A stretch of 64,000 bases of DNA from Chondrosia reniformis. Lineage: Eukaryota; Porifera; Demospongiae; Chondrillida; Chondrillidae. The translations under genes and the position numbers were made by a program. Below are positions 12,244 through 63,293 of this stretch, piece after piece. Under the pieces are notes generated by a model. The model saw only the letters and a list, made by a program, of their open reading frames with translations. It did no database searches and was not told the origin of the DNA. The DNA is taken from contig OX359195.1 of assembly GCA_947172415.1 (NCBI GenBank), positions 4,935,501-4,999,500 on the forward strand, written 5' to 3'. Position 1 is the first letter of the stretch. Every line of letters begins with the position of its first letter.

Positions 12244-14093
12244 TTAGTATATTGACATGTACACCAGCTGTACCTTTGGACTTTCTTCAACAGGGGTACA
12301 ATAGGAATTGTACAAAGTTTTTATTACTGCTTCATCAACTCTTGTAATAACCTATATGTAATTATAAGTACATGTCAATTTTATATACAATACGAAGCAC
12401 ATGCATGTAGAGAGAAAGATTTAATTGTCTGGCTATACAATTAGTTGCTTGAGTTATTAGATATTACAGTATGTAGGTCAGTGCCCTTATCATAAGATGT
12501 TTGATGCTGATGAAGACCTATATAGGTTGAAACATTTAAATGTTAGCTAGAATTTTATTTTGTTATTAAAACAATGGCCAGATCCAGGAAGAAACATTAC
12601 AAGAACTACTGCTAAATTGCATGACTAATATATTGCAATAAATTTATTACAAATACATAATATAAATTGCTTAATTGCTAAGCATGCTGCATGTTTTTAT
12701 TGATGATCTATGTAGCAAAATACGTACATATCTATTAAAAACAAAGTATGTAATACTCACCCTCCCCTTAAGGAATTCTTCTAAATAATCCTTGTACTTG
12801 CAGATAGCCATATGATGCTATACATAGAACAGGTAGATGGGTAAAGTAAAATAAAAACACAAACAAATTAAAAATGCAGTTAGAAGTAGGGATGGCCAGT
12901 GTTGCAACAATGAATATCACACCTGGAAAAAGTATCGAAACAAGACAGCAATCATGAGAGATATGGGTAACCATACAGAAGTGGCATACTGAAATTTATA
13001 ACAATTACTTCTGTGTTTGGGCCCACCATCCCTACTTTAACTCTCTCCATGATGCAATGCATGTAAATATACCCTGGCATCGATGAACTGTTTCCATTCT
13101 CCACAGAGTTCACAATGGAAGTAAATGCTTTCAAAAGTACTCTTAGGAACAGGAGCCAGCTGTGAAAGTAAAGTGTAAGTAAAGTCTTCATAACATGATT
13201 TCTATTTTGGAGTATGTAGAATTTATTTATGTGAAACTGAAGTATATAAACAAAAGGATTTACCATTAATAGACATAATATAGTACAGATCAAAAAAGGA
13301 TAATAGGTGAAAGCGAAACTAAAATTTATAAATGTTAAGTAAAATTCAAATAGAGGAAAAAAGTGAAACATTAGGACAATTTCTACAAAGTGGAAAATGG
13401 TAAAGGATAACTGTGAAGATTTCCACTAAACAATAAGGGGCAAATGACACTTCGAAAACTGTTAACTGATTAGTGATAATTGGTAGAAATGTTAAACAAT
13501 AAAGGACAATTTAAACTATAGATATTTCAATAGAATGTTTCAAACGTTAAACGTTTAATTAAAATGGCACCAAACAAGATTATCATTATCTTTTTTGATC
13601 TATACTCTAAGTAATGATTACTACTACACTTGCTCAGTGTAAAATATGTACGTATATGTACAAGCAGAAGTTTATGCAGGTATATATACATTCTATACAT
13701 ACGTATAAATAATTAAAAATAGGCCCCTCCCAATCATAATATAAGAGCTATCAATGAGTACTCACATGTGGCAAATTATTCTGGTCAATTGTTATGCCTT
13801 TGAATTTACATTTTCTACAAAACATATGGTGATAGTAGCATACATTTGGTTGATATTAATCTCATGAATGTGTACATACTCACTTTGGTAGAAGGCCTTT
13901 ACCATGACATTCACAGCAAATACAACAGATGTCACAGCAACCAATTTCATAACCGCAAATATTAGACTTCAAGTGGCCACCTAGGAACATTCCACACTGT
14001 CTACAGAGGACGTGGGCCGTTTCTTCGTCCAAATATTTAACTTTTTTATTTAAGTATAGCTGTATTCCACTTGTTATGTTTGCTACTTGCTGC
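12244..14093 (-). CDS. Z-B: small Cys/His-rich modular protein (5' end not found)
   Basis: Five exons in phase on the minus strand: 14093-13884, 13814-13766, 13159-13073, 12817-12761 and 12351-12244 (stop at 12246-12244). In order they encode the CRQC plus GCC-x2-CC-x-CC-x-C knuckle exon; a 16-codon linker exon; a CxxCG exon (FHCELCG); an H...C exon (HHMAIC); and a charged terminal exon that reads through to the stop. Every boundary has its counterpart in Z-A and Z-C. The first exon found begins in phase 2 with no usable Met, so an upstream exon is missing; a MITE sits just 5' of it. Function is unknown; the Cys/His pattern suggests zinc binding. Confidence 0.7.
12846..13055. mobile_element. 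MITE of family P, half copy
   Basis: It contains GTTAGAAGTAGGGATGGCC, AAAAAGTATCGAAACAAGACAG and CAGAAGTGGCATACTGAAA in the same order as the complete palindrome at 34.6-35.0 kb. Only one arm plus the centre is present. It sits in Z-B intron 3. Confidence 0.7.
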
Positions 14094-14102
14094 CTCTATT
14101 AT

Positions 14103-14336
14103 ATAAATAAAAAACATTTACAAAAATAATGTTGGAAGAAGGAATGGCAGTGTTCACTAATACATCTGCAAAAAGTATCAAAACAAGACAGTGATTATAT
14201 GATAAGGCTAATCATACAGAAGTTGCATTTATACTGAAATTTAAGTAACTTAACTATACACTTCTGTGTTTGGGTGCACTAACCTGAAGTAGGAATGGTA
14301 CGCCCAAACACAAAAGTGTATGGAAGAAAAAATTTG
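14103..14336. mobile_element. MITE of family P, half copy
   Basis: It starts with AATAAAAAACATTTACAAAA and carries GGAATGGCAGTGTTCACTAA, the AAAACAAGACAGTGATTATA block and ACACTTCTGTGTTTGGGTGC. It is nearly the same as the copy at 46.67 kb and complementary to the right arm at 9.3-9.45 kb. It lies immediately upstream of the first Z-B exon found. Confidence 0.75.
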
Positions 14337-14577: not shown

Positions 14578-17231
14578 CTAATTGTGAATCATGTAATATA
14601 ATGCAACTCGTTGTAAACCAACTGGATTGTAACTGTCCTTAATATTCCTGGTCGACCCTAAACCAGCTTTGTCTTCTTCCTGTGGTTGTTGTACTTCCTC
14701 TTGTGTTCCCAAATTCTTTTTCCACTTCTCTATAATGCGAGATACCACCTACAAGTAGATATGAATATTCTATACTAACTATGTACTTGTCCTCTCTGCC
14801 TCTCTGCCTTTGCATAACACTATTGTAATAGACACTATACAATGGTTTAAAACAAACTAGGCACACAGTAACTACATTACAGCAGTCAAAAATGCTATAG
14901 CCATTTTGAATTGAGAATAGAAGTATCGATTGTTACCTAGTGTGTAAAGATAGGCAAACAGCAGAAAAAGCAATTAAGAAAAGTTTAATAATGCTCTAAT
15001 AGAAAGCCAATATCTAAGAAGATTATGAATCCTTCCAGCCATGCAGGATGGCTTACAAGCAATAGGTCACAAAGTAAAACATGCAAAATGCAGCTACAAA
15101 TTGGTATATAAAATACATACTTTATATTAATATGACTACTTGAAACTTGCCAATTCCAATGTAACTAAAGTGACTTGTTTTCTCAAACACAATCCATGCA
15201 TATTATATATAGATATACGTATATACAGTGCAAGTTATTGAATATAGTAATCTAAATGAATGAATTAATTAATGTGCTCTCAAGGTATACCATATATAGG
15301 TTGGCATCTTTTTTGCTTTTTGTACACATTGAGCACATTAATAATTATAATATATTTAGTTTAGTAATTATTTTATGAAAAGCAAAATGATCACTGGAAA
15401 GAATTATGCCACACCAGCCAAGTGACTGAAGTCCTATTAAATTGGCAACCAGTGATCACCTCCCAGTGATCTAAGATGTAAGAAAATTCATCAAAGAACC
15501 ACAGACAGCTGTTTCGTCCTCATTTGGGCTCATCAGAGTGGTACACTTCAATGATGGTGAGTTTGGATGACTGTCTTCACTTATTAATCAACCACAAATG
15601 GAAATGAAGATGGAGGCTACAGTCTAAGCAAGACTGAGTGCTCACAATGAATAAAAGGGAGTTAATTGCACTGAGCCGTGCAAAAGCTATGATGGCAAGC
15701 AAACTATTCTGCTTATCATCATAGCCTTTGCACGGTTCAGTGCAATTAACTCCCCTTTATTAATTATTTTGTTTGTTCACAAACTACTCCTAAACTACAC
15801 AACGGATTGCCACCCAATATTCAACATTCATAGATTATGGAGAACTGCCCTCAGATGGTCAACGACAACCGTTCTACTGTTCTTATGGCTTTTTCCTTTC
15901 ACTTCCAGTACAGTAAAACCTCACTTATTAATTTATCCTAGAGGATTAAATAGCAGTACTCAACTGCCTGAAGGATGGAACAACTCAAGAGTAATTTGCA
16001 GACGAGTACTTGCACACTGTATTAAGAATATTGTGATTCACATATCTGGCAGTTTCACTTATCTGGCAATGGTCTGGCCCCGTTTGAATTGGATAAGTGA
16101 GGTTCTACTGTATTTGCTTTGTAACTGACCACCATATTTAATTAACACTGTCTTTCGGTTCCTTCACATAATAAAATGGCCACCTTGCTCGTTGCAAGGG
16201 GAACATTAGCATATTAATAGCATTTGCATTGCTGTAGCAGGTTTACCTCCAAAGGAGCACTTTCCTGCTAGTATATATTTGAATGTAAGCAGAAGTAAGA
16301 ATGAAAACAATATAGGGACTGCCATTGGTAGCCTTCAAAAAAGTCATTCATTTTAAAACATAAGCTAGAAGATTCACTAAACCTCTTGTATAACTCACTT
16401 TCTTACTAAATATCTCACACAACAGTTTTTTGTAGTCACATGTTCTGAAGTGGTTCTAATGAAATTGAATATAGCCACAAAAAAAATAAAGCTTATAACT
16501 GAGAAAATATAACTGAGTAGTTATATCTTCATCTACTGAAGATATTATAGCCTAGGTTTTAAAACCTAAATTGCCAATAGCTACATACGTGCTTACCTTG
16601 GCTAAAGCAAGTTTTCCAGTAGTTCCACAAAGTTCACAATGAAAAATTATCCTCTGAAACGTAGTTGCTTGCAGGCTAGAGAGCTGTACATAGTAGATAT
16701 ATAGGCATAGTCATGATCAGTTGCACAATATATGGCTTTTTTCAGTAAACCTTTCGTGGCATTAGCATCCAGTTTATTGGTCTTTTTGAAAAAGTACAGT
16801 ACCTGATAAAAAAGATGATATATGCTTAAATTATAAAGACCCTATAATAAGCTATACATTGTATACATGCATGGATTTGAATAAAATCACTATGCATACT
16901 CATGCACGGTCAATTTGTGTATTTACATTATAGCTAAGTCAATAAATACCTTACACATGCAAGCAACATTAATGCAATTTACAGTGCATATAATAAACAA
17001 AGTATTGATTCTAGGTTACTTTATCTAAGTGGCATACTCTGGCAAACTTTCTTTTTTCAAACAGTCATCGCAAGTGGTACAATAACTACAGCAATCCACA
17101 GAGTAAGCCGGCACAGAGACTACCTTCTCACATCTGAAACAGATGTAAGGAACCATTTCTTCATCATACTTCTCCTCTAGATAACCTTGTTCATGGAATG
17201 TCATTCCAACACTTTCTTTAGGACACGTCAT
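14578..17231 (-). CDS. Z-A: small Cys/His-rich modular protein
   Basis: Five exons: 17231-17038, 16802-16751, 16683-16597, 16455-16399 and 14748-14578, all GT-AG and in phase, giving 186 residues. The start chosen is the MTCPKE Met inside an exon that begins at 17239 after a good acceptor; the 5' leader exon is not identified. Exon 1 carries CFRC and DCC-x2-C-x2-C-x2-C. Exon 2 has a single Cys. Exon 3 has FHCELCG. Exon 4 has NHF-x3-C-x-YKK. Exon 5 is charged and reads to a stop. The gene lies head to head with R1. A Tigger-type MITE and a palindrome sit in the last intron. It probably binds zinc; role unknown. Confidence 0.78.
15440..15545. repeat. dispersed repeat with inverted copy at 22.18-22.27 kb
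   Basis: The block ACCACAGACAGCTGTTTCGT ... GGGCTCATCAGAGTGG matches the reverse complement of 22180-22270. A weaker relative lies at 23.49-23.55 kb (TGTCCTTATTAGGACTCATC). Confidence 0.6.
15650..15761. repeat. palindrome with 45-bp arms
   Basis: The arm 15650-15694 (AATAAAAGGGAGTTAATTGC onwards) is nearly the reverse complement of 15717-15761, around a 22-bp centre. It is probably a foldback MITE. It lies in the last Z-A intron. Confidence 0.8.
15911..16110. mobile_element. Tigger/pogo-type MITE with TA target site
   Basis: The ends CAGTAAAACCTCACTTAT and ATAAGTGAGGTTCTACTG are near-perfect inverted repeats of the Tc1/mariner Tigger type, flanked by TA on both sides. The 200-bp body is non-coding. 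Confidence 0.85.
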
Positions 17232-17399: not shown

Positions 17400-18650
17400 T
17401 GCAAGGCTGTCTACTTCCTCTCCACATGACATGCATGTGGCCTACACAGGGGGGCACCCAAACGAATACCTGTTGCTACCCTGATGGTTTCGTTATCCAT
17501 CCGCAGGCCGAGTGATGAGATGGGCAGCATGTTCACCCAGACTCCTGACTCTCTGGAGGCTAGCAGACGGGCACGGGCTCTGGGGTCTGGGGTCTGGTAT
17601 TTTCTCCAACAGGAATTCTACCACAGCCAATGTCTTGGGGATGTCTTGAGCTCATGCTCTTTGCTTGTGCCGGGCAGTGTCCTCGGGTGGGGCTTGGTCA
17701 TACCCCATGGACCACAGAACTTTGAGTGGACAAAGGGGTGGAGCTGGGGAACATGTTGGAGCACAGCACAAAGCATTTTGTCTCTGTAGATTGGATGAAT
17801 CCCACCTCCTTTCTTTTGAATGGCCGTCAGGTTAGCACCAAAGAAGAAGGGCTGGATGGATTTAGTGGTTATTCCTTCCAGTGCCAGTTGCACAAAGGAG
17901 GCAAGGGTAGGGATAAGGGCTTGGCAGCTGCTATCAACTGACAACATGTCCTTCAAGTGCTGTGGTGCCATCTGTCATCAACAGGTGGGACGGCAGAGTG
18001 AGGGTGTGATAGTGCATGGATGCTTCGCTTTAAGGGCATCAAAAGTGGCCTCATTCATGGTGGCTAGTGTGTCATCTGAGCTGACCAGTCTGATAACTCC
18101 CTTAGAGTCACTTTCCTCGAGCTTTGCCGACACACAAGCTGCCAGAAGAGTGGCTAAGTCGTCTGTGCTGGGATGGTTTCTTGTGGGGCTAGGTCTTAAA
18201 CTGGATGGTGGGACGTGATCAACCTCAACCATTAGCTGCTTGTTGACTGCTGTGGCAAGTGAACGGCAGCACCCCCATCCTGGGTGTCTGAGGCAGTGTT
18301 CGCTAAACTGAAGTAGGAGCACTGACGAGGTGTGATCGTTCTTATCAACAACAGTGCCGATAATGGTGGTAAACTTCTTCCCAGCGCACTCCCTTGAAGC
18401 CTTAGGCAGCCGCTTGATGATTTTCCTTGATGCTGTCGGTGGAAGAGATGGTTGAGGTGGTAGGGATGCGCGATCCTCTTGACGTGGGGCCACAGGCAGC
18501 TGCTGCTGTTCACGTGGTTGAGTAAGCATGGATGGCAGTCAACGCGAAACAGGGCATCGAGAGGAAACTGGACCGTGCTGTCTGACCAAACCGGCATTAG
18601 TGACTGCTATCGGCGAAGACATACAGAGCAGGACGGTTGAAAGATGGAAG
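17400..18650 (-). pseudogene. decayed retroelement: region upstream of RT plus start of RT domain
   Basis: Two minus-strand frames in series belong together. 18529-17978 ends in a SAKLEE...GVIRLVSSDD...LKAKHP block that precedes reverse transcriptase in many invertebrate retroelements. 17971-17618 carries QPFFFGANLTAIQKK.GG.HPI, matching the start of that RT domain. After this the frame runs into stops, and the catalytic YxDD part is absent. Base composition is clearly more GC-rich than the host genes. The insertion lies between the divergent genes Z-A and R1. Confidence 0.7.
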
Positions 18651-18775: not shown

Positions 18776-19347
18776 TGTTTTGTGTTTGTGATAGGCCATC
18801 TAAAGGTTGGCTTTAGATCTTTATAACATAAATTCCCCTAATTCTTTCATTGAATTGATTGAAAATGTAATACATTATACAGGAACCAGCAATTAGCACG
18901 CTAATTCAAAGGACTGATTATAACTGAATTATATATTACCATGCATATATGCCTATAAGCGTGTACCGATGTTGTATTACAGGGGGGTGACGAGGGGAAG
19001 TACAAACCATTCATGTGTACACTAGAACCGCTGAGCTGGCTAACCAAAATACGTAGGCATGGCATGTCTGTGCGCGCGTGTAGCTAACTCTATGATTCTT
19101 TACAACTACTCACCTTACTTGCCGTTTACCTTTCCTTTCTTTTCAGTTAAACACTCCACGAGGCAAGCTATTAACTGTCCAAAGGAAGACAGTCTAGTAC
19201 TTCCCCTTGGAAAGTACCCATTAATATCGTATACCATATTTGTACATGTAAACAGGCATGCAGCTAGGTACTTTCACGTGGGAACCCCCCAAATACTTCG
19301 GAATATTGTGTTCATTCTTTGTTGGAGTGATAGAAGCGACGCCTCCA

Positions 19348-22300
19348 ATGGATACCCAAGAATCTTGGAAAAGTTTAAGCTCAAACTCTGGTAGGAGCTG
19401 GGTAGCACAATGATTTCCAGATATCCTTAGATACTTTAGAGTAGCTACTTTAGTTTTAGTCTGTCATACTTATCTTTTTGTAGCAGCAGCGAATTTTATG
19501 CAGGAAAAACCTTCACTAGATGATTTACAATTGGCAGCTGATGCTATTCCTAATAGATATTTGAAAAAAGTGGTTAGCTTTCTGGGAGCAAGGTATGACA
19601 CTGACTTCAGAACATTTGGAATTGAAAAGGAAAGTGTAGTGCTCTTTGATGTATTGCTGAGCTGGTACAAAGGAAATGGCAGATGGTGTTCGGATCATGA
19701 GACTATACCTGTACCAGTAACATATGCAATATTGTGTCAAGTAATTATGAAGAGTGGATCCAAAAAAGGAATGGAAAAATTGATTGATTGTAAGCTAATA
19801 TTGATTTGTTTAGTTTATAACAATAATATATACCAATTTTTGCATTATTTACCATACTCTTACCATCATTTGTTACATGTAAGTACATTGTATTTCTTTT
19901 TTCACACAGATATGCATGCCATGCACAAAAAGCCTGCACTTGTAGTCTTGAAATACATTCAACAAGCCTTTACTGATAAACGTAAGAAAAAGCTAACACT
20001 TTGTTTGGGAGTGAGAGCTCCTGGTTTATCAGAGGATGAGAAGATTGAGGAATGGTACAAAGGACATGGTAATCTGCATGGCAGACCAGTGTCAGTAACA
20101 TACTCAATACTATGTACAGCATTGAAAGATAGCAAGTGTAGACCAACTTCTGATAAGATAAAGAAATGTAAGACCTGTGATACTATGTGTAGCAGGCTAT
20201 ATTTAATACGTATGTTTATAAATTCAGCTAACACAGCTACCTATTGCTTGCTCTCTACATTATAGAATACCATGGGCGGATCTAGAATTTTTCCAAGGGG
20301 GGTCACTCGCCTATCTACAGTATTTGTCATTATATAATACTATATGGTATGACATCATAATTAAAACAGCATAGAATAAAAATGGGAATAAGCGAGTAAT
20401 ATGTTGGTTTGTGCTAGTTCTACACTCACACATGCAGTAACTGTCTGCGCTGTTGTAGTAGGGAAACACTGCCCTGTGGTAACAGCGCTGAAAGACTTCA
20501 AAGTTCTAAGACATAATTTAGCATGCTGTAGTTTAAATATATTTTTGGCCAGAATTGCTAAAGGGGGTTTGTCCAAACCCAATAAACTACCCCTAAATCC
20601 GCCACTGGAAAATACTATAGTGAGAACTCTATGTGCTTAAGTTGAGTTAATTATATGAACATTTTCTATTTGTAGTTCTGACTTCATTTCACCAAAAGCC
20701 TTCCTTGAATGTAATTAAGTTTGTTACAAAATATTTACACTTGAAAAGTATCACAGATTTTGCCACATCTCTTGGAGTAAAACACAGCAAAACAACCCTA
20801 CCAGACGTCTTGAAAGACTGGTATAATGGAAAAGGGACAGTTAGTGGCAAACCCGTACCAGTAACATACTCAGTCCTGTGCAGGGCACTAGAAAAAAGTA
20901 AATGCAAAGATATGTATGAAGAAATTAATAGAAGTAAGCTTGCATAAACAGTTTTACTATGACTTTGTGTGCTACTGCTCCTTTTGAACACAACTCTCAC
21001 TCCAACACAAGCAAGGGAGTTGAGAGCTTTGTATTTACTATATACTTACATACACATTGACTATATGTGATAAAAATATAATCACTGGGACCTGAACAAC
21101 CAAGTGTTCAGTACATATCTACATAATATATACGTATATGTATTAAACAAATGTATTTACTATATTTTCCTTGTCTGTAGTCCTCTTTTCACTTCAGGAT
21201 AAACCTTCAAAAGAGGTTCTGAAAATTATAGCTGGGTTAGTACCAATGAGACAGAGTGTAAGCATTTCAAAACATCTGGGAGTAAAATGGGAGCAAAATT
21301 CAACACTGGATATCTTGAAATACTGGTATAAGGGAAAGGGTATCCTGGATGGTAAACCTGTACCGGTCACATATTTAGTTCTGTTTAAGGCATTAGAAGA
21401 TAGTTCAAATGCAGGGAACTTTAAATTGGCTTTAGTGAAATTGCAGAATAGTAAGTCTATGGCAAAATCTTTGAGTTTATTCTTACTTGTTGAATTATGT
21501 ATATATATATTACTGCACAAACTTATATATACGTATTACATCATACTTGTTATATAGTAATCAGGGCTTATATATATATATCTACGTATGTATATATATT
21601 TCTTTTGTTATATATTAAGTATATAAAAGTTTTAATTTTTTTCACAGGTTTGATGAGCATATTGGAGAATCCTTCTCTAGCCACAATTAAGCCATGTTTA
21701 TTAGAACTCAGGAAATACTTTGGAGTTTGGTTTTCTGGTCATCGTGAGTCAAATATATCTGTTAACTTCAAGTGCTGGTATGATGGAAATGGTGATCAAC
21801 TTGTGTCTGTGACAAATTCTGTGATGCATAAGTCTCTAGAAAGTGAGTATGTCAATCACTCTGAGGAACTTAATAAAGGTAATGTAGAAGAAGTATGTAA
21901 GAGATAGGATTAATTTATTTGGCCTAAGATATAAAGTGAAAACTCTCTCAAAATGACTTTCTGAACTTAGTCTATTTACAAACTGACATGTACAGATTGA
22001 CTTTTAGACACATTTACATACGTAATACCTAGTCATTTAACTAGGATTTACATTGAAGGCTTACTCTTGCTTAGAGACTGTAGCTCCCACCCTCACTTAT
22101 TTTGAAATAAAAAGTGTTTCACTTATGATGGTTTATTATATAAGTTGAATGCAGTTATCTAAACTCACAACCAAAATGTGTTCCACACTGATGAGACCCT
22201 AAAGAGGGCAAAACAGCTATCTGTGGTTCTTTGATGTTATTTTCCATCTTGAATGGTGGGAGATTATCACCAGTTTAATAGGACTTTTGTCCACCAGCCT

Positions 22301-23991
22301 AGATTAGACTTTGTGGTCACTTGCAATTGGCTAGTTTAGCATAATATGTTCCATTGATTATTTAATCATCAATCATCATTGTTTTACTTAAAATATACAA
22401 TATACAGTAATATATACATTATACAATATACAATATCTAGGCACATCCAAAAAAGGCCAAGAAAGATGTAACTCTGAGGTGAAAAGGTCATTTAGGAGTT
22501 ACCAAGGCCATTTTGTAAATAAGGAGGGACATATCATTACTGTAAAAGACTTGAAACGGTTTATTTGTGAATACTGCTCTGCTTTTGCCAAGGATGCAGT
22601 AGTTTCAAGCTGTGGACATGTCTTCTGCAAAGAATGTACTGATTTTGTCTTAGAAAGGTATGGCCAGCACCAGCTCTGTGATGGTATCTGTACATGTGTA
22701 AAGTTTGACAGTGTGTATATTTTCAATATAACCTCTGAAACAGAAATGCATGTGTTTAATATACTTAATTGTTTGATTATTCTCATATTTTCAGACCCTG
22801 TACTGCACAAGGATGTCAACATACAATTACAAAGGTATACACTACACATACACATTATTTATACAAACAGAGAGAACCTGATGTTGCTCGGATGAAAATA
22901 TATACCACTTAAATTGCTGTAGTCATTACTCACATGTTAAATTTATATATTTAAAAACAGGAGACAGATTATAGAATTATAATTTATTTTTTCTTATTTT
23001 GGACTGAAAGAGCTTCTGAGGACACATAGCTCGTATTACTTTCCACCAACATTTACATCTGTTGGTGTGGTTTTTAGAGTGTACAGCTTTAAAGGGGAGG
23101 TATACAATAATCTTCCTTTAGCATGATTGCCCTGATCTCTTCCTGTGTTGCCTTTGGGTGTTGATGTTTGTCAAATTACAGATTTCGTCCTTAATTAAAT
23201 TAACTGATAGAGAAATCCTTGTACTCGCTTTGCTGCTACCAGAATTGTGGATAAAATAGGGATAATCACTTTGCAATAGTATATGACATTTTTGTACCCC
23301 CGTTTTCCAGTTGAATACATCAGGTTTTCAGATATATAAATCAGAGATCTTAAAGCTGTGATGTCTCATCATTTGACTCTGGATTTTACCCCACCCACCC
23401 ATGTCTCCTGAGGAGCATGATATGAGCTAATGGGCAGAAATGAAGTTTTCTTGATGGGAACCAGTCAGTCTCTCCCTAGCCACTCAAAAAGATGGTCAGG
23501 CCATGTTTTGTCCTTATTAGGACTCATCAGTATGGCATATGATGAAAGTTTGAAGTGCATGAACTTCAGTTCTGCCCATTAGCTCTTTGCGCTCCTCAAG
23601 GGACATGAGTAGGCAGGGATAATATCAAGAATTCAATTATGATGATGACATTGAATTGTTCAATTTTGAAAGATGTACCCTTTTATTTCCCTATCTCTCT
23701 CTCTCTATATATATATTATATAGGTATTCATAAGCAGGTCGACCAGATGTTTCCAGCAAATGTACTTCTTCATTTGTAAAACATGTAACAGACAATTTCA
23801 TCTTGGAGAATTGAAGGTATGTTGCATGCATATGCATTTAGCACAACACTTTATATACATAATTATTGTATATGCTAGTAGTGTTGGGTGTGCAAATCTG
23901 TGTAAAGGGTAATTTGAAACCTTAAACTAATCTGTACATATATCCGTAGGACCATGGAGATATTTGCAGAAATAATACAATTGAAGCATAA
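19348..23991 (+). CDS. R1: five death-fold-like repeats plus RING-like and TRAF-like zinc fingers
   Basis: Ten exons: 19348-19390, 19484-19789, 19910-20167, 20676-20933, 21181-21450, 21648-21878, 22441-22657, 22795-22834, 23724-23816 and 23950-23991, giving 585 residues. Exons 2 to 6 each encode one repeat of about 75-90 residues with KPSL, an LGV/LGA core, W-Y-K-G and PVPVTY-x-LC-x-ALE. This resembles the death-fold helix 5-6 region. All five are bounded by phase-1 introns. Exon 7 has CEYC ... CGHVFCKEC (RING Cys/His), exon 8 the last pair C-x4-C, and exon 9 FICKTC with HLG. The last exon is short, with DHGDIC. An AATAAA follows the stop. It is probably a cytoplasmic adaptor or E3-like protein; death-domain assignment is by pattern only. 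Confidence 0.85.
20271..20607. mobile_element. MITE with GGCGGATCTAG ends in R1 intron
   Basis: The ends (CATGGGCGGATCTAG and ATCCGCCACTG) are inverted. A second insertion with the same ends lies at 61483-61799. The body is non-coding. Confidence 0.75.
22180..22270. repeat. dispersed repeat, inverted relative of 15.44 kb copy
   Basis: ACTGATGAGACCCTAAAGAG ... GCTATCTGTGGTTC is the reverse complement of the 15.5-kb copy with about 80 percent identity by eye. It sits in R1 intron 6. Confidence 0.55.
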
Positions 23992-26529: not shown

Positions 26530-27651
26530 TTATATAATTTGAGGAGTGTCTAGTCTCTCTGATAGTGTTCCTGACCACTTGCTGCACAAATAGTGTTTAC
26601 AGACACAGCACAGCAGTCTCTTGGCATTTTGTCGGACGTCTTTTAAGAATATTAGATAGAGGATAGGGGTACTGAAAAGAGATGCAACACTGAGTAGTAT
26701 GCTTATTACAAATACAGTCCAGGGACCAACTTGACTTGCAGTTGCTGATAGGACAAGTGCTACAATGGTGACAAAGGGAATTACATGTCCAAGAAGAGCC
26801 AGTGAGTTACTGATTAGTAGAAAAATGGCCAATTTAGTCATGGCTCGCTTGAAAGTATTTAAAACTCTCCCTTCCTTTGAGTTTTCAATGACTGTATTTT
26901 TATTAATGAATTTCAATGTTAGGATGGGAAGTACAATTGATATTGCAAATGTAGGAATAGCAATTACTGACGGAATCACAAGACTATAGATACAGGCAAT
27001 GTAATGAATGTTGTATGAAACTGCAAATGGATAGTAAAAGTAAAGTAAAAGGCTACCCAAGTTGAGAATAACTGCGACTAACCAAACTGCTATACATCCA
27101 ATAACAACTATCCAAATTTTTATCTTGTGAAAGAGATATTTCACACTGATGTAGATCAATATGGTATAAAATGCCATAAAAAGCATTCTCACAGTAACTG
27201 ACACTGGTAGTCCAAGTAGAAAAACAGCACTGTAAGCTCTTCTTTTGGAATAAGCTGACTGGTTGCAATCATATATGTAGCTTTTAAGTTCCTTGTTACT
27301 ACTGTTAAGATAAAAATATGAACCATTGTAAATATCTAGTTTAAAGTTTCTAAATATGCTTCTCCAGCAATCATTCTCGGATACATATACTGCACCAATT
27401 ATTAAACCTAATGTACAATGCAGAATTAAGGAAATCAGTGTATTGATAAGCAGGATACGAATTCCTTTAGGTAATTTGCCAGGGATCAGGAGAAGGTAAA
27501 TGATAAATCCATTGAATGCCAATACTGTGGTTACAACTGGCGGAGCAGCTGTGATGATTGCTAGACTTAAAAAATCCAGTGTTCCATTAAGGGCAGCTGA
27601 AACTCTAAATGTTAAGATGTCTGGATCCATTATATTCCAGGCCAATTCCAA
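26530..27651 (-). CDS. seven-transmembrane receptor, divergent rhodopsin-like GPCR, intronless
   Basis: A single 373-codon frame has seven hydrophobic segments near residues 28-55, 63-90, 142-172, 178-206, 216-246, 272-303 and 312-337. Glycosylation sites (NGT, NGS, NSS) lie before TM1 and in the first long outside loop, which also has Cys95 and Cys129. TM7 ends TPILYLIFLKD-R, like the D/NPxxY motif plus helix 8 of class A receptors, followed by a CC-x-C cluster that could be palmitoylated. No classical DRY motif is seen after TM3. The Met at residue 8 could be the true start. It is probably an orphan sponge-type receptor at the plasma membrane. No intron interrupts it. Confidence 0.8.
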   Translation of the reverse strand: MELAWNIMDPDILTFRVSAALNGTLDFLSLAIITAAPPVVTTVLAFNGFIIYLLLIPGKLPKGIRILLINTLISLILHCTLGLIIGAVYVSENDCWRSIFRNFKLDIYNGSYFYLNSSNKELKSYIYDCNQSAYSKRRAYSAVFLLGLPVSVTVRMLFMAFYTILIYISVKYLFHKIKIWIVVIGCIAVWLVAVILNLGSLLLYFYYPFAVSYNIHYIACIYSLVIPSVIAIPTFAISIVLPILTLKFINKNTVIENSKEGRVLNTFKRAMTKLAIFLLISNSLALLGHVIPFVTIVALVLSATASQVGPWTVFVISILLSVASLFSTPILYLIFLKDVRQNAKRLLCCVCKHYLCSKWSGTLSERLDTPQII

Positions 27652-47300: not shown

Positions 47301-48194
47301 CCATGTAAGGAAATAGTTTTCAATTTACCTTTCTGTTTAGGGTGAGCGTGCAGTGCATGGAACTTCACTTATGAGACTACCACTGAGACTAATAAACACC
47401 TGTACAAGTTGTGCAATGTTTAAAGGAGTATATAGAGTATAGGCATAAATGACTGGTAAATACTAGTTGAACGTTTTTACCGCAGCAGAGGGAAACTTGA
47501 ATAATTATTGGAACATTTCGGTCCGTAGACCTTCCTCAGCCAATGATTGATGAGAACAAGAAGTATAGGCATAAATCTTTATAATATGCATTTAATATAG
47601 GGTTACAGTGCTTATAACAAAAACTCAGTATATGTATACAAGGTGATTGTATTACCATGCAGACTGGTAGGTTAGTAGGTAGAAAATTATTGGTTGACCA
47701 GCTGCTTGTAACAATCTACAGGTTATGGCATGTGTGTATTGCCTAGTGATTGTACATGCATTATATGCATGTTTTGAATATACGTATACGTACATACATA
47801 TAATGTTTTTTATACCTCATCAAGGAAATTAAACAAAATGATCTGAATAGTGATGAAGACCAGTCAAATAGTGGACAACAGGTCACTGTAGAACTTGCTT
47901 TACTGGAAGAAGATTCTGAAAAGGTAACAGATCTAACTATGTATACGTACGTATATACTGTATAGACTGTTAGCCTTTAATCTTCATATTATACTGTATG
48001 TATATAAGTAATTACCAGACTGGTCTGAGTGTCACAATCTCTCACCCTTGTAGAGTTCATATGGATATAACAGTTGTGATGGAGGAGATTACGAGGAATT
48101 AAAGCCAGGTGTGAAATGTCAAAATTATGACCCCTCTCGGGATATTTCTGTTTATTCACAGAACCTTAAGTTCGGGAAGAAGCCATATACATAA
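44382..48194 (+). CDS. Z-D: long Z-family protein with duplicated exon
   Basis: Nine exons, all in phase 0: 44382-44636, 44700-44798, 44870-44941, 45301-45396, 45898-45957, 46110-46208, 47222-47293, 47825-47923 and 48054-48194, giving 330 residues. Exon 1 holds CRAC and NCC-x-C-x2-C-x2-C plus the S-C-Y linker, which in other Z genes is a separate exon. Exon 2 has FECMVC; exon 3 DHL...LC. The rest is an acidic, low-complexity tail. Exons 6 and 8 are 97 percent identical copies. The first intron has no GT donor: the reading needs CAT|GCCGCT, a poor GC-AG site, so it may be damaged. It lies downstream of R2 on the same strand, not head to head. Confidence 0.75.
45957..46275. repeat. first copy of the Z-D exon duplication
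   Basis: The segment from GGTAGGCTAGTAGGTAACAA through exon 6 and the following CTGTATAGACTGTTAGCC matches 47667-48005, introns included. Confidence 0.88.
46665..46856. mobile_element. MITE of family P, half copy, in Z-D intron
   Basis: It starts AAGTAAATAAAAAACATTTA and runs through GTAGGAATGGCAGTGTTCAC to ACACTTCTGTGTTTGGGCGC. It is very similar to the copy at 14.1 kb. Confidence 0.8.
47667..48005. repeat. second copy of the Z-D exon duplication
   Basis: It matches 45957-46275, with the exon differing at one residue (QVTVEL instead of QVTEEL). The high identity of the intron sequence shows that the duplication is recent. Confidence 0.88.
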
Positions 48195-48613: not shown

Positions 48614-48754
48614 GTGAGAGCACCAAACCATTTTCAAGAAGAATCGTTTTGATCAGGTCAGCGGAACTAAATAAGTAGAGCCTAGCCACATCATTTCGTA
48701 TCCTTAATAATAGTATTATTACGTAACATATAATTTATGCCACTTACGCAGGCT

Positions 48755-51700
48755 ATGGGTGCGTACAAATACTTACAAGAACTCTACAGAAAGAAGCAAT
48801 CTGACTTGCTCCGTTTTCTCTTGAGAGTCAGATGCTGGCAGTACAGGCAGCTGTCAGCTATACATCGTGCCCCTAGGTCGACACGTCCAGATAAAGCCAG
48901 ACGTCTTGGATACAAGGCAAAGCAAGGATATGTCATTTATCGTGTGCGCGTACGTCGAGGTGGACGGAAGCGACCGGTTAGGAAAGGTGCTACCATGGGC
49001 AAGCCAACAAACCAAGGTGTGACGCAGCTAAAGTTCCAGCGTAGCCTGCGTTCTGTTGCTGAGGTAAGCAGGATTATAGATTGTATTGTATGAAAGTTGC
49101 ATTAATATTTAAAGTGCAAAGTGGTGTTGCATTAGTCAGACCATAGACTATATAAACTACGTAACCGGGACTGGAATCCGCCTACGCACGGCTGTGGCTA
49201 TGTTTGTTGTAATTCCGTTATTATTACGCAATATTTCCGGTTTACGTATAGAGCGAAAAGATGGTCGACGAATGAAGTAATGTAAATGACGCCGATTTAT
49301 TCGACTCGAGTGTAAATCAGTCAGTTTTCAAACGTGTAAAAAGTGTTTTAAGAAGATGGCTGTGTCATATAGAAGCGAAATAGACGTTATCGATCTTTTG
49401 AGTACCTTGTTGAAGAAGTTATTCGACGGCGATTATTCCAGCCCCACTATCAAGCGTCATAGGACGATTCAGGAGCATATTCAAACTATTTTGAAGTCAG
49501 ACAAGTTTCCTCTTTTGGCCACCACTTTATATAAAGAATTAAGCGACTTGCTGAACAACTTACCTCCACCAGGAAGGAGAAATAACTCCTTTCAAGCTCT
49601 TCTTTGGCCAAGATTTCACGAATTTCGTGTTAAACATGTGCCTCAAATCTGGCATACGACTATTGGGACAGCTGATCCCATATTGATGCAAAGGGCAAGT
49701 CTAGACTTGCTAATAAAAATTATTGAATTGAGAAAGAAGGAATTTGCACCAACTGTAGTGGCTCCGGGAAAGCAAGAAAAACGAGCCAAACTCTCCTTTG
49801 AGGAGCAGAATGCCACTAGGTATGTGGCTGGCTATGTTCTCAGGAAATTAAAAAAGAAGTATTCTTCTATGAGGGGTTCTTTAGCCATATGGGAAGCCAT
49901 CTTGGGAATGGAAGAGGACTCTTCCCATGAAGGTGATGAAGAAGAGACAGACTTTCTATCTTATACGCGTGCATGGATAGACTATATTGATAAGGGTGGA
50001 CTATATAAAGTAAAAGATGAAGTATATCTTTTTTTGTGGAGTTGGAACTGTCAATTTATCCACTACTGCATGAACATCTTCTGTCTGTCAGTAGCACAGA
50101 ATTGAAGGATGCTATTGCGGCAAAGGTCAAAGAGGATGAAGATGTGTTGTTTTCTTGGTCCCTTATAACAGTTGCTCTAACACAAGAGGAAATGGACCAG
50201 CTGCTCAATGATATCATTAACATCTGGATAAATTTGCGCGGGTTTGCCCTGGCATCCCTCTTTGTTGAACAGTATAAAGAAACTGTTCAAAAAAATACCA
50301 TTAAGTCAAAGGGACTGCGCAGGCAATTATTAGGAGATAAAGAAGGTCATTAACTGTATAGCTACATGTATTTTAATACATGTATGTGCATGCATGTAAG
50401 TATAACGATATATAAGTGTATAGGTGTATGTGATTCATGAAACTGAACGTTTTTGATTACGCTTTCGCAATGCAACCTCAGATACTGAAACTGAGGTAAC
50501 ATTCTCTTCTCTACCACGGACATTACCCTGCTCCTTCTTTGAAAGACCTGTGGCTACTCTTAAGATATTTGCCGTGGTACTAAATTGTTGTACATTTTGT
50601 GGTACTTTGTCCTCCCATCAACTGTCTGCACGACCCATGTATCAGGCAATTCAATTTGGACCTGTTTATGCAGGTTGCCATACTATATGAATTAACCAGA
50701 CTGGACCCTTGCCCTTTTAGCTTACTTTGCGCACTTTAGCTGTCCTACCAATCTTTTTAGATCGACTCAGTCGATGGGAAAGAGATCTCTTGCTATTTGA
50801 AGTACTAGGATTCGACATATCACTGTACAATACTGGTTTAGTCGATTGTTAATTATATTCATATATTATGTAAACAATTGTCTTTGTTGTGGCAGTTCCC
50901 GTGACCACAACTTAGCTAGGTATACGGGTTGATGATGGCAGATTTACTAGGCTCATAGGTGCCTTACGAAAGAATTACGGGAAAAGTATGGCCGATAATA
51001 GCATGGTTCAGCTATTCAGCTTTTCAATAAAAAAACCTGGCGAAAAACGGCCAAGTGGTTATTGAGTTTTACTGCAGAAAGTATTAATGTATAAAATCGG
51101 GTAAATTTAAGGACTATTTTCGAATTTCTAAAGAGAGAAGTGAGTTAAGCGTCAAGTAAGCACGTAATAGCACGCAGGCAGATGTATATGACTTGTTTAG
51201 CACAGTCAAAATGTTGTATGAAGCGCCGTTTTTTGGCAAACTTGCAGAAATAGCAAGACATGTTACTCTTTTTTTGGGTAAACTGATAGTCGATGCAAGG
51301 ATGGCTAAGACGATTTAATTCGATAACGAACGTTTTAGGTTGAGTGTAATGCTTGTTTTGTCACCTGATATGTTTAACTTTCAATTACAATGTTTGCTTG
51401 CTGAAGTAAAGGCTCATAAAAAAGGTGCTCTTCAAGTACGCAAGGGAAAATACAACAAACATAGCCACACAGGAAGTGACGTAACATTATTATTTATACA
51501 GATGCTACGCGTTATAATCCTCAATTAATATAGTAATACTGTGGTGATTCCAGTCCCGGTTACGTAGTTTATATAGTCTATGGTCAGACCCTCTTGCTAC
51601 AGCATTAAATGAACTACTTCCTTAAATCTAAAGATAAGTAGATGTAACATTTTGTTTAAATGTAATTAGTAAAGGCGTAAAATCTAGGGTAAAATTGAGA

Positions 51701-52067
51701 TTCAGTTTGACTAATTGTATAGTAGATTTTATTTTCAGTTTTCTTTTTGTCCTTTTTGCAGGAAAGAGCTGGTCGTCACTGCGGTGCTCTTAGGGTGCTC
51801 AGCTCCTATTGGGTGGCGCAGGACTCTACTTACAAGTTCTTTGAGGTCATCTTAATAGATCCCATGCACAAGACGATTCGAAGGGATCCTAGGATTAATT
51901 GGATTTGTAATGCTGTTCACAAGCATCGTGAGCTCAGGGGCTTAACGGCAGCTGGTAAAAAGAATCGTGGTATGGGTAAAGGTCATCGTTATAACAAAAC
52001 TATTGGTGGATCAAGAAGGAAGAATTGGAAGAAACACAACACACTGTCCCTCAAGCGTTATCGTTGA
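48755..52067 (+). CDS. RPL15: large ribosomal subunit protein eL15
   Basis: Two coding exons, 48755-49063 and 51762-52067, give 204 residues, the same length as in human. The protein shows [72 protein letters not shown] and the end LSLKRYR. eL15 is a basic rRNA-binding protein of the 60S subunit. The start at MGAYKY rather than the in-frame Met upstream is fixed by the acceptor at 48751. The 2.7-kb intron is mostly a TIR transposon. An AATAAA lies at about 52177, 13-18 bp from the R3 stop codon on the opposite strand. Confidence 0.97.
49356..50353 (+). CDS. transposon-encoded protein, one frameshift
   Basis: The frame from 49356 runs about 227 codons, then shifts at a T7 run (50029-50035) into the frame that continues to TAA at 50351-50353. 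Together they make a protein of about 332 residues. Visible blocks are a helical start, [59 protein letters not shown] and a basic end. Similar proteins of this arrangement are known to me as uncharacterised transposon-linked proteins in cnidarians and sponges. No DDE triad is recognisable. The one-base loss breaks the frame unless the run slips. Function is unassigned. Confidence 0.7.
50435..50818 (-). CDS. small basic protein encoded on the opposite strand of the transposon
   Basis: A first exon 50818-50726 (31 codons, [20 protein letters not shown], then [11 protein letters not shown]) ends at AAA|GTAAGC. Two continuations are possible in phase: acceptor at 50662 (TAAACAG) giving 33 more codons to a stop at 50560, or acceptor near 50612 giving 58 codons to a stop at 50435 with a basic end ([12 protein letters not shown]). 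The longer reading is more protein-like. A Ser/Arg/Lys-rich start suggests a nucleic-acid-binding or nuclear role. It runs convergent with the plus-strand gene. Confidence 0.5.
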
Positions 52068-52194: not shown

Positions 52195-53154
52195 TTATTC
52201 ATCTTCATCTGGTAAGCAGTGACAATCTCTTTGATGTTTCTACAAAATTAGTAGGTAACTGTACATGTACTGGATAATGGCCCATGAATGCAGATAGGTG
52301 ATCATGAATGCTATAATATATATGTTGAATTTAATTGAAATATCTTGTGTACTTTTTACAGTTTACTTGTACGAATATTTACACAAGACTAAAACTTTTG
52401 AGTTTTGTAACTGTTCTCTTCGTCATAGAAACTCAGCTAAGGCTTACACTGGGTATGTTTTGCATACAAAGTATCTGTACCTTTATATTTCCAAGAGTTA
52501 CACTTTCACCTGTTACAGGACATATATAAAAGTAATGTCCTTGTTGAGTCCTAATTGCCAAGCTTTCATAAAACTATAGATATATGATAAATTGTCACAA
52601 CATATAGGTTGACTACTATCAATCAGAATGAGGTACCCTAGTGATCTTCTTTCTTCTGCACCTCTCACCCAGAAAACACTCCCTAAAAAGCATATGTAGG
52701 CATTTAAATATAAAAGTATACATTTAATAGTTTATATAGATAGATAAGATAAGGTGGCATTGGAGGATTGGGTCTGTAAGTTGTGTAACTCTGGTGAGAC
52801 TGAGGATGCAACCCATTTTATTACCAAATGTCTCATTTTTAACAATTTAAGACGTAAATTATTTAATGAGTGTAATATTACTAACCCTTATTTTTAATCT
52901 CTAACAAATGTACATAAGTGCCTCTATATCCTCTCATATCCTAATAAACAGATTACCAACTGTATCTATCTCATGTACTTACACCACACATCAGTCACCT
53001 AGTTTTATAACATGCAGTTTTATAAATGCATACAATTTACATTCCCCTTCATCCCTATCCAGTTGCAGATGTCCTTAGTGTGACTTGTAAACCCTTATGG
53101 TTGGGCTGTCTTTACTGACTTCAGTTTTGTATAGCATGTCACAATAATAAACAA

Positions 53155-53198: not shown

Positions 53199-56100
53199 AA
53201 ATATACAATCATACATACAGAGAGTGAGGCAAAAAGTAAATGACAAAGGAAAGAATATGTGCTCTTCTAAGTTGAGTGATATAATCAATGCTTTATACAG
53301 TACCTGTCTAATGTGGTCAGCCTTGACTTATTAGAAAGGTGGCTATAGCCTTAGGCCCAACCATATATAGTCTCACGTAGCTAGACCTCTTTCTGGGAGA
53401 AAGGGTCGGGTACAATGGCTATGTGTGGCTTGTGTAGAGACCCCAGAAGAGGGGGGGATATTAACTACTCGAGTTGTGTAAACAATCTAACAAAGGATTA
53501 TAAATGTGTTGTAGCTGTGTTCCTTTGCACTGTGTGTTTCATTGCATGTGACTGTATAGTCCCTCCTTCAATTGTTTACATAACACTGATAGGTATGGGC
53601 AGGTGTTTGCCGCTAGACGCAGGTAGGGAATGTAATTATGCCCCCCACCCCCCATAACTGTATAATTTTTGCTAGGGCTTTAAAGGGTAGCCATATAGGT
53701 AACCACAATCACTGGTTTTACTGTACAAGCAAGCAAACCACCCGTAAGTAGAGGTGCACAAGCACATATAGTCATTCATACGTAATAGGTTTTCTGAGGC
53801 TTAAGCAGCAGGTTTTAGTTAAGGTACGTACATATGTATGCACTTACATTTTTGCTGTCTCATTTACAGTAGGACCCTTCTCCATTTCTTTGGAGCAAGC
53901 TCTGCAGTAGGAATGAGTACAGCTTGCTGTTACTGGATCTTCAGCAAACTGCTTACAAAATGGACAAATATATTTCTCTAGGTCCCTTCGATCAACTGTA
54001 TCTCCTTCAATCCTCCTATAGAAACCCTGATGGGTAATGCAAGGTAGACAATAAACTTGTCCTTTAAAGGTTCTGACTAGGGAATCAGTGATTTGCTGAC
54101 AGCCTTCACACCTGACACTTTGGCCTGTTGCCTCATTAGCTGAAATGGTCTCAGAATTTTGTAGTTCTTCCCTATAGAAGCACACGAAGTAATTCTAAAA
54201 TTTGGGCATAGCAACATTCAATTTATAACAAAACATAATGGTACAACTTCGCATTAAAAATAGGTAAAACTAACTCTTTTTCTTCTAACTTCTTCTTTAA
54301 ATCTTTGAGCAGCAAGTAAATGATTTCTTCAAGGTTTTTACGCTGTGTCAAAAGGAAGCCTTCCCTGGGGCTAGATGACACACTATAAAATAAAATAAAC
54401 CAAATGAAATAATAATTACCATGTCTGGCAAGTTTAAAGACTTACAGGTAAATAGAATCTTAGCAGCTTAAAATATTACCGGAAAATACATCCATAAACT
54501 ATACAGTAAGCAACAATCAGAGAGGTTATTGATGCATGACAGCTATTCAAAGAGGAAGGATTACGTACCTCAGGACATGAATAGCTAATAACAATGACTG
54601 ATTCTAAAAATGATATCTACTTTCATACTACATCTAAAAAAGCAGGAACTCACTAGAGGTTTGTCAAACTGACATCGAAACAGGCATCTGTAGAACAAAA
54701 TTAGATAGGGACATTACATACATATACTGTATACAGAATTCTGATAAAACATACCCTCTAGGGTCATGGAACGCTGTGCTATATAAGCAAGGCACTTCAC
54801 ATTTAAATCAAATTATATTATTTATATGTTAGCTAAGCAAAGTTGAACAGAAAACATGCACAATTGCTGTTTACTTAAACAAATCAGCTGAAGTAGTGTG
54901 CTTTAACTGTGTTATACTGCTGTTATAGCCTTTATCATATTTACAGGTTCAATGAGCACAAGGGAGTTAGGCTAGCATCTTTATTATCCATTTTTACTTC
55001 AGCTATATTGTCACCCATTTAATTCAGACTGGTTTTAACTTTGTACTGTGAACATGTTGAGTGTCACGATTATTGATTGAACTACTAGCTGAAGTGTACT
55101 TTGTACTGTTCTATTATCAATAGTTTATGTTGCTGTTGCTCAATAATACCTCTGGATTAAATCATGGTCGCAACAAACAATCCTTATCACTTCAAATGCA
55201 CCTACGTATATATGGGGTATGTTTAATACTGTAATATTTACAACATTGAGTAATCATATACTGCATATAGAGTGCGTATGGTACAAAGTACAATCCTGTG
55301 TTATTACGGAATTCAAAGGCGTTGTCACATATAACAGGCAATCTAATACTCCTATGCACAGTGATCTCATGTGCATACTATATCCCAGGTATGCTACAAA
55401 AGAGGTCCACTGTTACATGTAACTATTAGATACGCACTTGTTCTCATTTTGCATAAAAATATATCATTTCCACAAAATTTACTTTCTTAGTCTCAAGATA
55501 AGCAAACTTTTTTTGTCTTAACAGGTTTTATCAGTAGCCATTGAACTAGGCTTATTAGCTGTAGTTGCTATATGCAGTTTTGCACACAGTTTTCTATTAC
55601 GTAATAACAATATAAGGGGGTCTTACAGCTTGATAATCGAAATAATAATACCCCAATAACAGAGGCCTCAGTATCTATACACAAATGCATGCTGTATATT
55701 GAAAGGTTGCCTTAATTATGATTCACACTCACCATTGAACAACCTGAACTTATATTTCATAATCTCATTTTTTGGCAAAAATCCCATTGGTTGCATAACA
55801 TAAACTGATCTTTTAGATGAGAGTTCAAAATCTTTGACATCACTAATACATGGCTGACTTACAGTGGTTGATGGTCTATAAACTTGGTGAAGAACAAGTG
55901 CGTTACAAACATCTAAAAAGAGAAAGAAGCATACAATAGAAATAATAAGCTAAAAACAAAAATTGTAGGCTTCATGTACAGTTACTTAGGACTTTACTCT
56001 TTGCTTCTCTTTTGTGAAAAGTAAGCCACTGTCTTTGGTAAATATTCCCCTATCCTACTATGTATGTACATACAACCACACCATTCACCATTGGTGCCAT

Positions 56101-60527: not shown

Positions 60528-60654
60528 CTCATTATAATTGGAATATTCTATATTTGGAATATTCTATATTTGGAATATTCTATATTTGGCATACTCTATT
60601 TATATTTTTAGGGCTGTTTTTCCTCATACTGAAAGGATTCGTCGGTGTCAAAAA
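60528..60654. promoter_or_regulatory. 127-bp divergent promoter of R3 and Z-E with 16-bp tandem repeat
   Basis: The two start codons (R3 at 60527 on minus, Z-E at 60655 on plus) are only 127 bp apart. Three and a half copies of GGAATATTCTATATTT fill 60537-60590. Each copy contains the palindrome GAATATTC. A TATTTATATTTTTA block follows on the Z-E side. The repeat probably binds a dimeric factor and drives both genes; that is inferred. Confidence 0.6.
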
Positions 60655-63293
60655 ATGGGTGAAGTACGTATTTTCCTTCAGTTTTTCTGTTGGTAAACTC
60701 TCTTTAAATATGCCGTATGTATTTATTTATAGTTTTTGCATGAGTTCGCAATGTACAAGAAAGATTCTTACTCGGAATCACGCTTACTGACACCAAGAGA
60801 AATAGGGACAAAAACTTGCATTGTTTGCACCAACATACTGACACTGGACTGCTATACAGTGGGATGCTGTGCCTATTGTTTTATTTGTGTAACATGTCGT
60901 ACTCCAGATAGCTGCTATTTTACAAAAGAACCAATTGAAATGGAAAAGGTGAGCATCATCGCTACGTGCAGCAGCATGTATCGGCACAGTTGGTTCTACT
61001 TCTTAGCTAGGTAGCTGACAGAGGTCAAAAGGTTAAATATGCAAAAATACTTCAACTCTAGCTAATAGAGAGCTACGAAGCTAACATGTACACTTGGTGT
61101 CAGCATACACAGGCATCCACAAAGCATGCATATCCAAAAATTGAAAAGCACATTCAGCCAGCCTACACGTAGCCCAACGAAAACAACAGTCCAGAAGGGT
61201 TTCTTAAAATCGTCTTTTACAATAAATGTATAGAAAAAATAGGACTCTCAGGTATCTTAAACCAAAAGTTAGTGTTAGAAACTGTCCCACCCTTAATACA
61301 GAACAAACATGTGTAGTGTATATACCCAGCCAATAGGACCTCAAATCTTGAACTTTTCACAAGCCTGCGATGTTTTTAGAAAACCAGAACCATGTGATCA
61401 TGAGTGTAAAAGTCCCCCTTCATTTATAAGCCCCTAGGCCATGTTTTAAAAGGTGACCTATGTATTGTTAGTAACCCAAAGCCGTGGTGGATCTAAGATT
61501 TTAGAAAGGGTGGTTCTGGTTCCAATAATAACTTTACGTCTTATTGCGTTATTGATTACGTAATGCATAATTGCGGAGAACATAGCATACAGCAGTAGAG
61601 GAGCGAGTTGCTGCCACATTTGAATAGGTCGTATATACTGTCTTCCTAATATTATAGATTATTGGATTGAATTGAATTATTATTATTTCCGCTACAGTAA
61701 TTTAGCCTGTAAGTTCTTGCTCTTGTACTTACGAAAGCCAACTTACAGGCAAAAGGGGGGTTCCTTTGCACCCCTGGACCCCCCTAGATCCGCCACTGCA
61801 AAACTTAGAAAACTACTTAAGAAAGGACCAATATTTAGAGAACCTAATAACTTTAACTGGGTAACTACTTTAAAAATGTGTAAGGAAGGTCCTAAAAATA
61901 TAAGATTGCCTGGGCCCGTAGCAAAAATGTATCTACTTTTGTATTTAGTGAGTGGGAAAATGCTATACTTAAGAAAATTAATGATAGGATCTCTAAGCTG
62001 TCTAAATTGTATACCAAATCCTCAGTAGCCAAGAAAACCCTTACTTGCCCTAAAATTACAAATTTCTTAGTAGACCTACATGATAAGTATGTTATAGCCC
62101 CTGCCCCCTATGAGTATGTGTTTATGAAAGGACTACTTAAGGATAACATCACTATAGCTATACTATAGCTAGTAAATTTTCCAATACTTATAGGTATGTT
62201 GATGACCTTGTATGTATCAACAACAAGGATTTTGAACTGTCAATTAGTGACTTTTATCTCAAAGAACCTATTATTAAAAAGACAATTATCAGCCCTAGGA
62301 AATCCCCTTTTTAGACTAAAGGCCTTTTCACATTGCGATGCGCATTTGAATTAGGATCGAATTCGCATCAGTTTAATGCGCTTTGAAAGCGTTTCGACCC
62401 GTTCACATTTACTCTAACCGCAAGCCTAACTGTATACAATTGTTTTCCTTAATGCGCTTTAACCGCACCCAATGCACCTCCGGAGGTGAATTGGGTCGAT
62501 GCGCATTAAGGCGGATCGAGGAATCGAATGCGCATTGAAATTTTATCGTGTGAAACCGATTAATGCGAATTAATGCGCGTTATCGTTGCAAGTGTGAAAA
62601 GGCCTTAATTCATAAAATTAAATTTCATCATGTGTCTTAGTTAACACCCTATTCAACTTTTGGCACCAAAATTGGGTATTTAAGGCCCCTAGATTTAGCA
62701 TAGAGAACCAAGGATTCACAAAAGATCAAGATAAAGATTAAGCAAAAGACAAAGACTCCCAGGATTACTGATGAAGGGTGGCAGAAATGGCTGTCTGACC
62801 CAGTGGAGAAGAAGATAAAAGAAGGAAGAAAAGACTCCTGTATCTTTATCCAACGCTCTCTTCAGGTTTAGTTCCCCAATAGGCTTTTTACAGAATAGGC
62901 ATAGCATGTAGGAAAATGGTGTATTAGATCTTTCATATATACTGAGAACACCTTAAATTGGTTACAATTTGAGCATCAGCAACACTTATTATTATTAGGA
63001 CATTTTGACCCATAGGTCTTCTACAGCAATAAAGAATACCTTGTATGGATGCACTATTTAATGTTCATTTGTTCTGCAATATCTTAGATGGCACCATCTA
63101 ATACAGAGGTTACAGGCTATAAACTTCATTACGAATGTTGTAGATTTGATGAAAATTTGTCTGAAGGAAGAGTAAGGGCTACGTATTTTTGATTACTTAA
63201 GAATATATATATACATATGTTCAATACTTTTAGGAACATTTTAACTCCAAGGAATCCTGTGGACATCTTTTTAGGAAGTTCATAATGAATAGG
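60655..63293 (+). CDS. Z-E: Z-family protein, 3' end outside or unresolved
   Basis: Four exons in phase: 60655-60663 (MGE), 60733-60948, 63088-63171 and 63234-63293. Exon 2 has CIVC and GCC-x2-C-x2-C-x2-C, then SCYF, so knuckle and linker share one exon as in Z-D. Exon 3 has YECC; exon 4 has EHF-x5-C and ends in a good donor (AGG|GTTAGT). The charged last exon found in Z-A, Z-B and Z-C is not seen before 64000. A 21-base candidate exon lies at 63679-63699 (CAG|TGCAAT...AGG|GTGAGT). Intron 2 is full of mobile elements. It is paired head to head with R3. Confidence 0.72.
61483..61799. mobile_element. MITE with GGCGGATCTAG-type ends in Z-E intron
   Basis: The ends CGTGGTGGATCTAAG and CTAGATCCGCCACTG are inverted, with the same family signature as 20271-20607. 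Confidence 0.7.
61800..62310 (+). pseudogene. reverse-transcriptase fragment
   Basis: Broken plus-strand frames include FLVDLHDKYVIAPAP and, near 62190, YRYVDDLVCINNKDF, an RT active-site YVDD context. Stops and a small duplication (ACTATAGCTATACTATAGCT) separate them. It is a decayed non-LTR or Penelope-like element. Confidence 0.65.
62319..62606. mobile_element. MITE with AAGGCCTTTTCACA ends and repeated AATGCGC motifs
   Basis: The ends AAGGCCTTTTCACATTGC and its reverse complement (one mismatch and one indel) bound a 288-bp body. Variants of AATGCGC / GCGCATT occur at least eight times in both orientations. It sits inside the RT fragment. Confidence 0.8.

Follow-up and report, generated by a model that had tools for sequence, protein, structure and literature searches.

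What keeps genes of two kinds lying head to head, again and again, on the chromosomes of a sponge? The question is raised by a window of 64,000 nucleotides (the whole stretch analysed; Chondrosia reniformis, assembly GCA_947172415.1, contig OX359195.1, positions 4,935,501 to 4,999,500), in which a first-pass annotation had described three R genes and five Z genes, with three R/Z pairs in divergent orientation. We propose from their sequences that these may be divergent pairs inherited together, in which a RING E3-like protein is matched with a partner whose RING is divergent, both built on one TRAF/RNF125-like RING plus C2HC cassette, a reading to which we would give about an even chance. All eight genes were found again by reading of the sequence and splicing by script, most junctions being GT-AG, in the order Z-B(-), Z-A(-), R1(+), Z-C(-), R2(+), Z-D(+), ribosomal protein L15(+), R3(-), Z-E(+), and the re-spliced models bear out the divergent order of Z-A/R1, Z-C/R2 and R3/Z-E. 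The exon models of Z-A, Z-B, Z-C and Z-E are open; for R3 and Z-E the first exon is predicted only, as is the upstream end of Z-A. For two Z genes the joining of exons was confirmed by spliced proteins: P0014 (628-bp contig from ENA) covers five junctions and agrees with the Z-C model in 164 of 168 residues, and P0015 (749-bp contig) joins the exons of a sixth Z gene on chromosome 9 (C9), the cleanly aligned exons being 92-100% identical. No R transcripts were found in a search that took proteins of ~61-194 amino acids, so that only R4, the C9 copy, could appear whole; the three proteins returned all equal exon frames of this same genome.

The pairing is real and extends beyond the window, which lies within contig C7. 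A search of the genome (117,379,552 bases in 15 contigs; 117 Mb) for further R/Z pairs yielded a fourth, R4 and its Z, divergent with 1.6 kb between them, and these were the only further R/Z loci identified. Divergent pairs include all four identified R genes and four of the six Z genes; the R genes so counted are those identified among 67 rows of the R search, in which the ten best matches outside the window and C9 were opened. Nine of these ten were TRAF-like and one (L022) was not placed, as judged without a Pfam run. One TRAF-like match, on C3, outscored the C9 R gene (9.1e-9 vs 4.9e-8), which is counted as R because of its exon cassette and not its rank. The chance of random placement as close as the C9 pair is ~3e-5 by our own, post hoc arithmetic. 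In the Z search a match on C5 (E 0.88) was dropped, its first CxxC being missing.

Start codons are separated by 127, 207 and 388 bp in three of the four pairs and by ~2.1 kb in Z-A/R1 as modelled. The first figure, given previously as the tightest spacing, stands for R3/Z-E between predicted starts, and the second becomes 171 bp if the first codon of P0014 itself is taken. Transposon insertions had been said to part the other two pairs; this holds for Z-A/R1, with repeats between the genes, and fails for Z-C/R2, because P0014 puts exon 1 of Z-C close beside R2 and the insertions fall in Z-C intron 1. The repeat there (34573-35712), a recently spread element, contains an internal palindrome and has at least 39 other genome copies at 91-98% identity.

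R and Z appear to be branches of a single TRAF/RNF125-like RING plus C2HC cassette. A four-exon cassette with matching intron phases is present in 7 of 10 genes, the spacing C-x2-C-x11-H-x3-C is shared by 6 of 10 members, and the R and Z profiles align end to end, both pointing to RNF125/TRAF-type RING-finger structures. A RING finger as in TRAFs was found in R only: Pfam zf-C3HC4 matched R2 and R3 above the cut-off, R1 just below it (20.4 vs 21) and R4 weakly (best 19 vs 30). The Z RING is divergent (C-x2-C...CC-x2-C-x2-C-x2-C, followed by the C2HC finger), and identity among paralogues is only 20-38% within Z and 30-40% within R. The N-terminal regions of R1, R2 and R3 gave no mutual match (best E 0.094), and that of R2, its own, had no significant Pfam match. 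R1 carries five predicted Death folds, the fold of death-domain proteins, an assignment that rests on profile relatives, death-domain matches and AlphaFold (predicted local distance difference test score, pLDDT, 86 for one repeat); the window repeats were not among the genome matches of the Pfam Death profile.

The cassette was compared with two known families. As in TRAF2/5/6, a RING is followed by a zinc finger, the R profile aligns with TRAF5/6 over RING-ZF1, and the next-best R matches in the genome are the TRAF-like ones noted above. Unlike in TRAFs, neither a MATH domain nor a row of TRAF fingers was found in R or Z, and R1 has Death repeats; Pfam scans of R1-R4, Z-A, Z-B and Z-C contained no MATH (TRAF-C), and of 112 genome hits to PF21355 none falls at the C9 pair or within the window. 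RING-UIM proteins of the RNF125/RNF114 family, the top VIA match of the Z model, share the RING and C2HC with identical spacing in the six members mentioned. The C2H2 finger and UIM that follow the C2HC in that family were absent from the Pfam scans, and R1 and R4 stop 7 and 16 residues past the C2HC, which leaves no space for them. No publication on these R/Z genes was among the literature matches listed, and such papers may still exist.

We propose that an ancestral R/Z pair arose by inverted duplication and then spread by copying of the pair. R has a recognisable C3HC4-type RING and exchangeable N-terminal arms (five Death folds in R1, regions with no assigned domain in R2 and R3, almost none in R4). 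The R and Z proteins would be expressed together and form a heterodimeric E3 through their RINGs, and the Death repeats of R1 might bring this E3 to assemblies of receptors or adaptors in signalling of the TRAF type. BRCA1/BARD1, MDM2/MDMX and TRAF5/TRAF6 are named as heterodimeric RING E3s (PMC5702613); the likeness would lie in a canonical RING that pairs with a divergent one, as proposed here, and the difference in that R and Z are encoded head to head. By analogy with TRAF5-TRAF6 RING heterodimers, a working partnership would be one economical reason to keep the pair. Recurrence on a second chromosome suggests joint action of R and Z, perhaps in signalling of an immune type. The immune role proposed in the first-pass annotation has circumstantial support, namely the Death-fold repeats of R1, the TRAF-like next-best R matches and a rare element that also occurs at TRAF-domain loci.

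The main alternative, somewhat less probable to us and still a serious contender, is neutral inheritance: one inverted tandem duplication, after which the pair was copied as a unit, neither a functional partnership nor selection of joint expression being required. Such copying could account for much of the recurrence, and a single cassette common to R and Z is what an inverted duplication would leave. The genome is compact, and Z-A/Z-B shows copying in plain tandem as well. In sponges the head-to-head arrangement is frequent: one study puts 45% of Amphimedon queenslandica genes in it, many with starts within 1 kb (PMC4773876). Divergence alone is therefore weak evidence, and what counts is recurrence with the same partner; the bidirectional promoters of Amphimedon are likewise those of sponge head-to-head genes, whereas in the present genome each of four pairs joins the same two branches. 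Against neutrality, identity within branches is only 20-40%, so that much has changed, yet a divergent Z has been kept by every identified R on two chromosomes; transposon pressure is evident in the cluster; and no common flanking genes were noticed in 10 kb on each side of the C9 stretch, in what was not a systematic comparison. The trees were left out of this question because supports within branches (32-71) are too low to test duplication of pairs as units. The safest statement would be that one TRAF/RNF125-like RING plus C2HC gene split long ago and that its two branches have since been maintained, or copied, in divergent pairing.

A more ambitious possibility, which we consider unlikely, is an animal paired-receptor-like system: an obligate head-to-head pair of a RING–C2HC E3 with exchangeable N-terminal arms, a death-domain array among them, and a divergent-RING partner, which would act as heterodimers and be induced jointly with TRAFs by way of a common Rel/NFAT-like palindrome. 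The near-palindromic element GGTACTTTCCAAGGGGAA lies ahead of R1, and GGTACTTYCCNNGGGGAA has five exact matches in the genome, the R1 copy among them, against none for a reversed control. The exact element is common to the R1 and C9 pair intervals, and two other matches are near TRAF-domain genes. Proximity of a looser palindrome to TRAF-MATH genes was scored partly post hoc, after those two neighbours had been seen, and evenly spaced points stood in for the two large tandem MATH clusters. With pair-locus sites and the two known neighbours removed, 49 sites remained, of which 5 were within 5 kb (P 0.0011, or 0.02 by loci) and 7 within 10 kb (P 0.0003, or 0.003 by loci); with chromosome 11 also dropped, the counts among 43 sites were 1 (P 0.17) and 2 (P 0.07, or 0.03 by loci) respectively. 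If such a system exists, its logic would resemble that of the sensor/helper pairs of plant NLRs. Those are head-to-head immune gene pairs, and the likeness lies in divergent immune-type genes with swappable domains; R and Z are different proteins, and a sensing role is not part of the likeness.

Several points weigh against co-inherited working pairs. The enrichment just described is weak once chromosome 11 is removed (P 0.03 to 0.17), the looser palindrome was not enriched near Death hits (P 0.17 to 0.60), and the exact element occurs in two of four pair intervals only, the same two that defined it. Z-B and Z-D have no divergent R partner, and the low tree supports also count here. The hhalign probabilities are low (18 and 9%). 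Z genes differ in their exon cassette, because Z-E has the next ligands in the same exon as the RING and the Z-D model is incomplete. Z-D and Z-E deviate from the C2HC, R2 and R3 lack its second Cys, and the last RING ligands of R are C-x4-C (C-x5-C in R3) and not C-x2-C, so that catalytic competence of R cannot be assumed.

We give little credence to the literal first reading, two unrelated families repeatedly brought together: R and Z are unlike in RING consensus and overall layout, share just 12-24% identity, split with support 99 in a joint tree, and Pfam scans of Z-A, Z-B, Z-C and Z-D (the four scanned) contained no RING, but the common cassette with its matching intron phases and C2HC spacing, the end-to-end profile alignment and the RNF125/TRAF-type structures indicated for both do not bear it out.

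Coordinates of the R and Z genes and associated features (window positions unless prefixed C9)
Feature	Position	Strand	Remarks
Z-B	12244-14095	-	open GT-AG model; C-x2-C-x11-H-x3-C
Z-B exons	RING-like 13884-14095; next 13766-13814; C2HC 13073-13159, 12761-12817; tail from 12351	-	
Z-B stop	12244	-	in frame if tail exon read on
Z-A	14638-17231	-	open model
Z-A exons	17038-17231, 16751-16802, 16597-16653, 16399-16455, 14638-14748	-	end of last exon arbitrary
Old dispersed repeats between Z-A and R1	17430-18650	.	15 further genome matches, 68-77% identity
Near-palindromic element	19201-19218	-	~130 bp ahead of R1 start codon
R1	19348-23991	+	one open frame, 585 amino acids, ten exons
R1 first exon	19348-19390	+	585-residue open model
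R1 five Death-fold repeats	exons 19484-21878	+	predicted; one repeat per exon, all phase 1-1
R1 RING exons	22441-22657, 22795-22834	+	585-residue open model
R1 C2HC exons	23724-23816, 23950-23991	+	585-residue open model
Z-C	30254-36761	-	spliced protein P0014
Z-C exons	first 36735-36761; 31293-31456, 31157-31205, 30904-30990, 30770-30826, 30257-30376	-	first exon MESAGKIKR
Z-C intron 1 with transposon matter	31457-36734	-	DDE_1 transposase fragment 32298-32765; repeat ~34573-35712
Z-C/R2 interval	36762-36968	.	207 bp between start codons; candidate bidirectional promoter
R2	36969-42153	+	open model; exon 7/8 junction not clean GT-AG
R2 RING exons	39490-39760, 41205-41250	+	Pfam RING
R2 C2HC-like exons	41426-41518, 42082-42153	+	open model, exon 7/8 junction uncertain
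Z-D	44382-48194	+	exons visible: RING-like from 44382; zinc 44700-44798, 44870-44941; tail exons
R3	~60527 to 52195	-	open in pieces; junctions just before RING uncertain
R3 extra C-x2-C-x16-C-x2-C motif and RING	53848-54171	-	Pfam RING above cut-off
R3 RING end	52637-52682	-	open in pieces
R3 C2HC-like exons	52481-52573, 52195-52239	-	open in pieces
R3/Z-E interval	60528-60654	.	127 bp between predicted start codons
Z-E	60655-63293	+	open model
Z-E exons	first 60655-60663; RING-like to 60948; zinc 63088-63171, 63234-63293	+	first exon MGE, predicted; next ligands in RING-like exon
Sixth Z	C9:5007369	-	genome search and spliced protein P0015
R4	C9:5009080	+	genome search; N-terminal arm almost nil

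In the splicing of the window no start codon was identified for Z-B and no upstream first exon for Z-A. No usable donor was found after exon 1 of Z-D, which may therefore be altered or a pseudogene; one of its tail exons is present in two copies (46110-46208 and 47825-47923), near-identical by eye, a recent internal duplication. The C9 pair is flanked by two similar-looking large frames with no Pfam match (L045:7691-10000 and L047:1679-3718), and the element lies ~200 bp upstream of the former. On C11, a row of TRAF MATH frames occupies 610-806 kb (L051), one adjoined by a protein kinase frame, and seven looser-palindrome sites fall at 640-804 kb. Eight more fall on C14 at 614-841 kb (L052); the one fetched is ~130-150 bp away from a frame whose kinase match is weak and falls below the cut-off. 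Large MATH-frame arrays lie at C2 9.336-9.405 Mb and C3 6.636-6.737 Mb, many with two MATH per ~600-residue frame. Within the window, 26533-27657 is a single frame of 375 amino acids, multi-pass and G-protein-coupled-receptor-like by eye, with no Pfam match. The L15 gene (+, 48734-52067) sits inside the cluster, its matched halves (48734-49093 and 51726-52067) divided by a stretch that holds a transposase-like frame at 49290-50102 (P-element match below cut-off).
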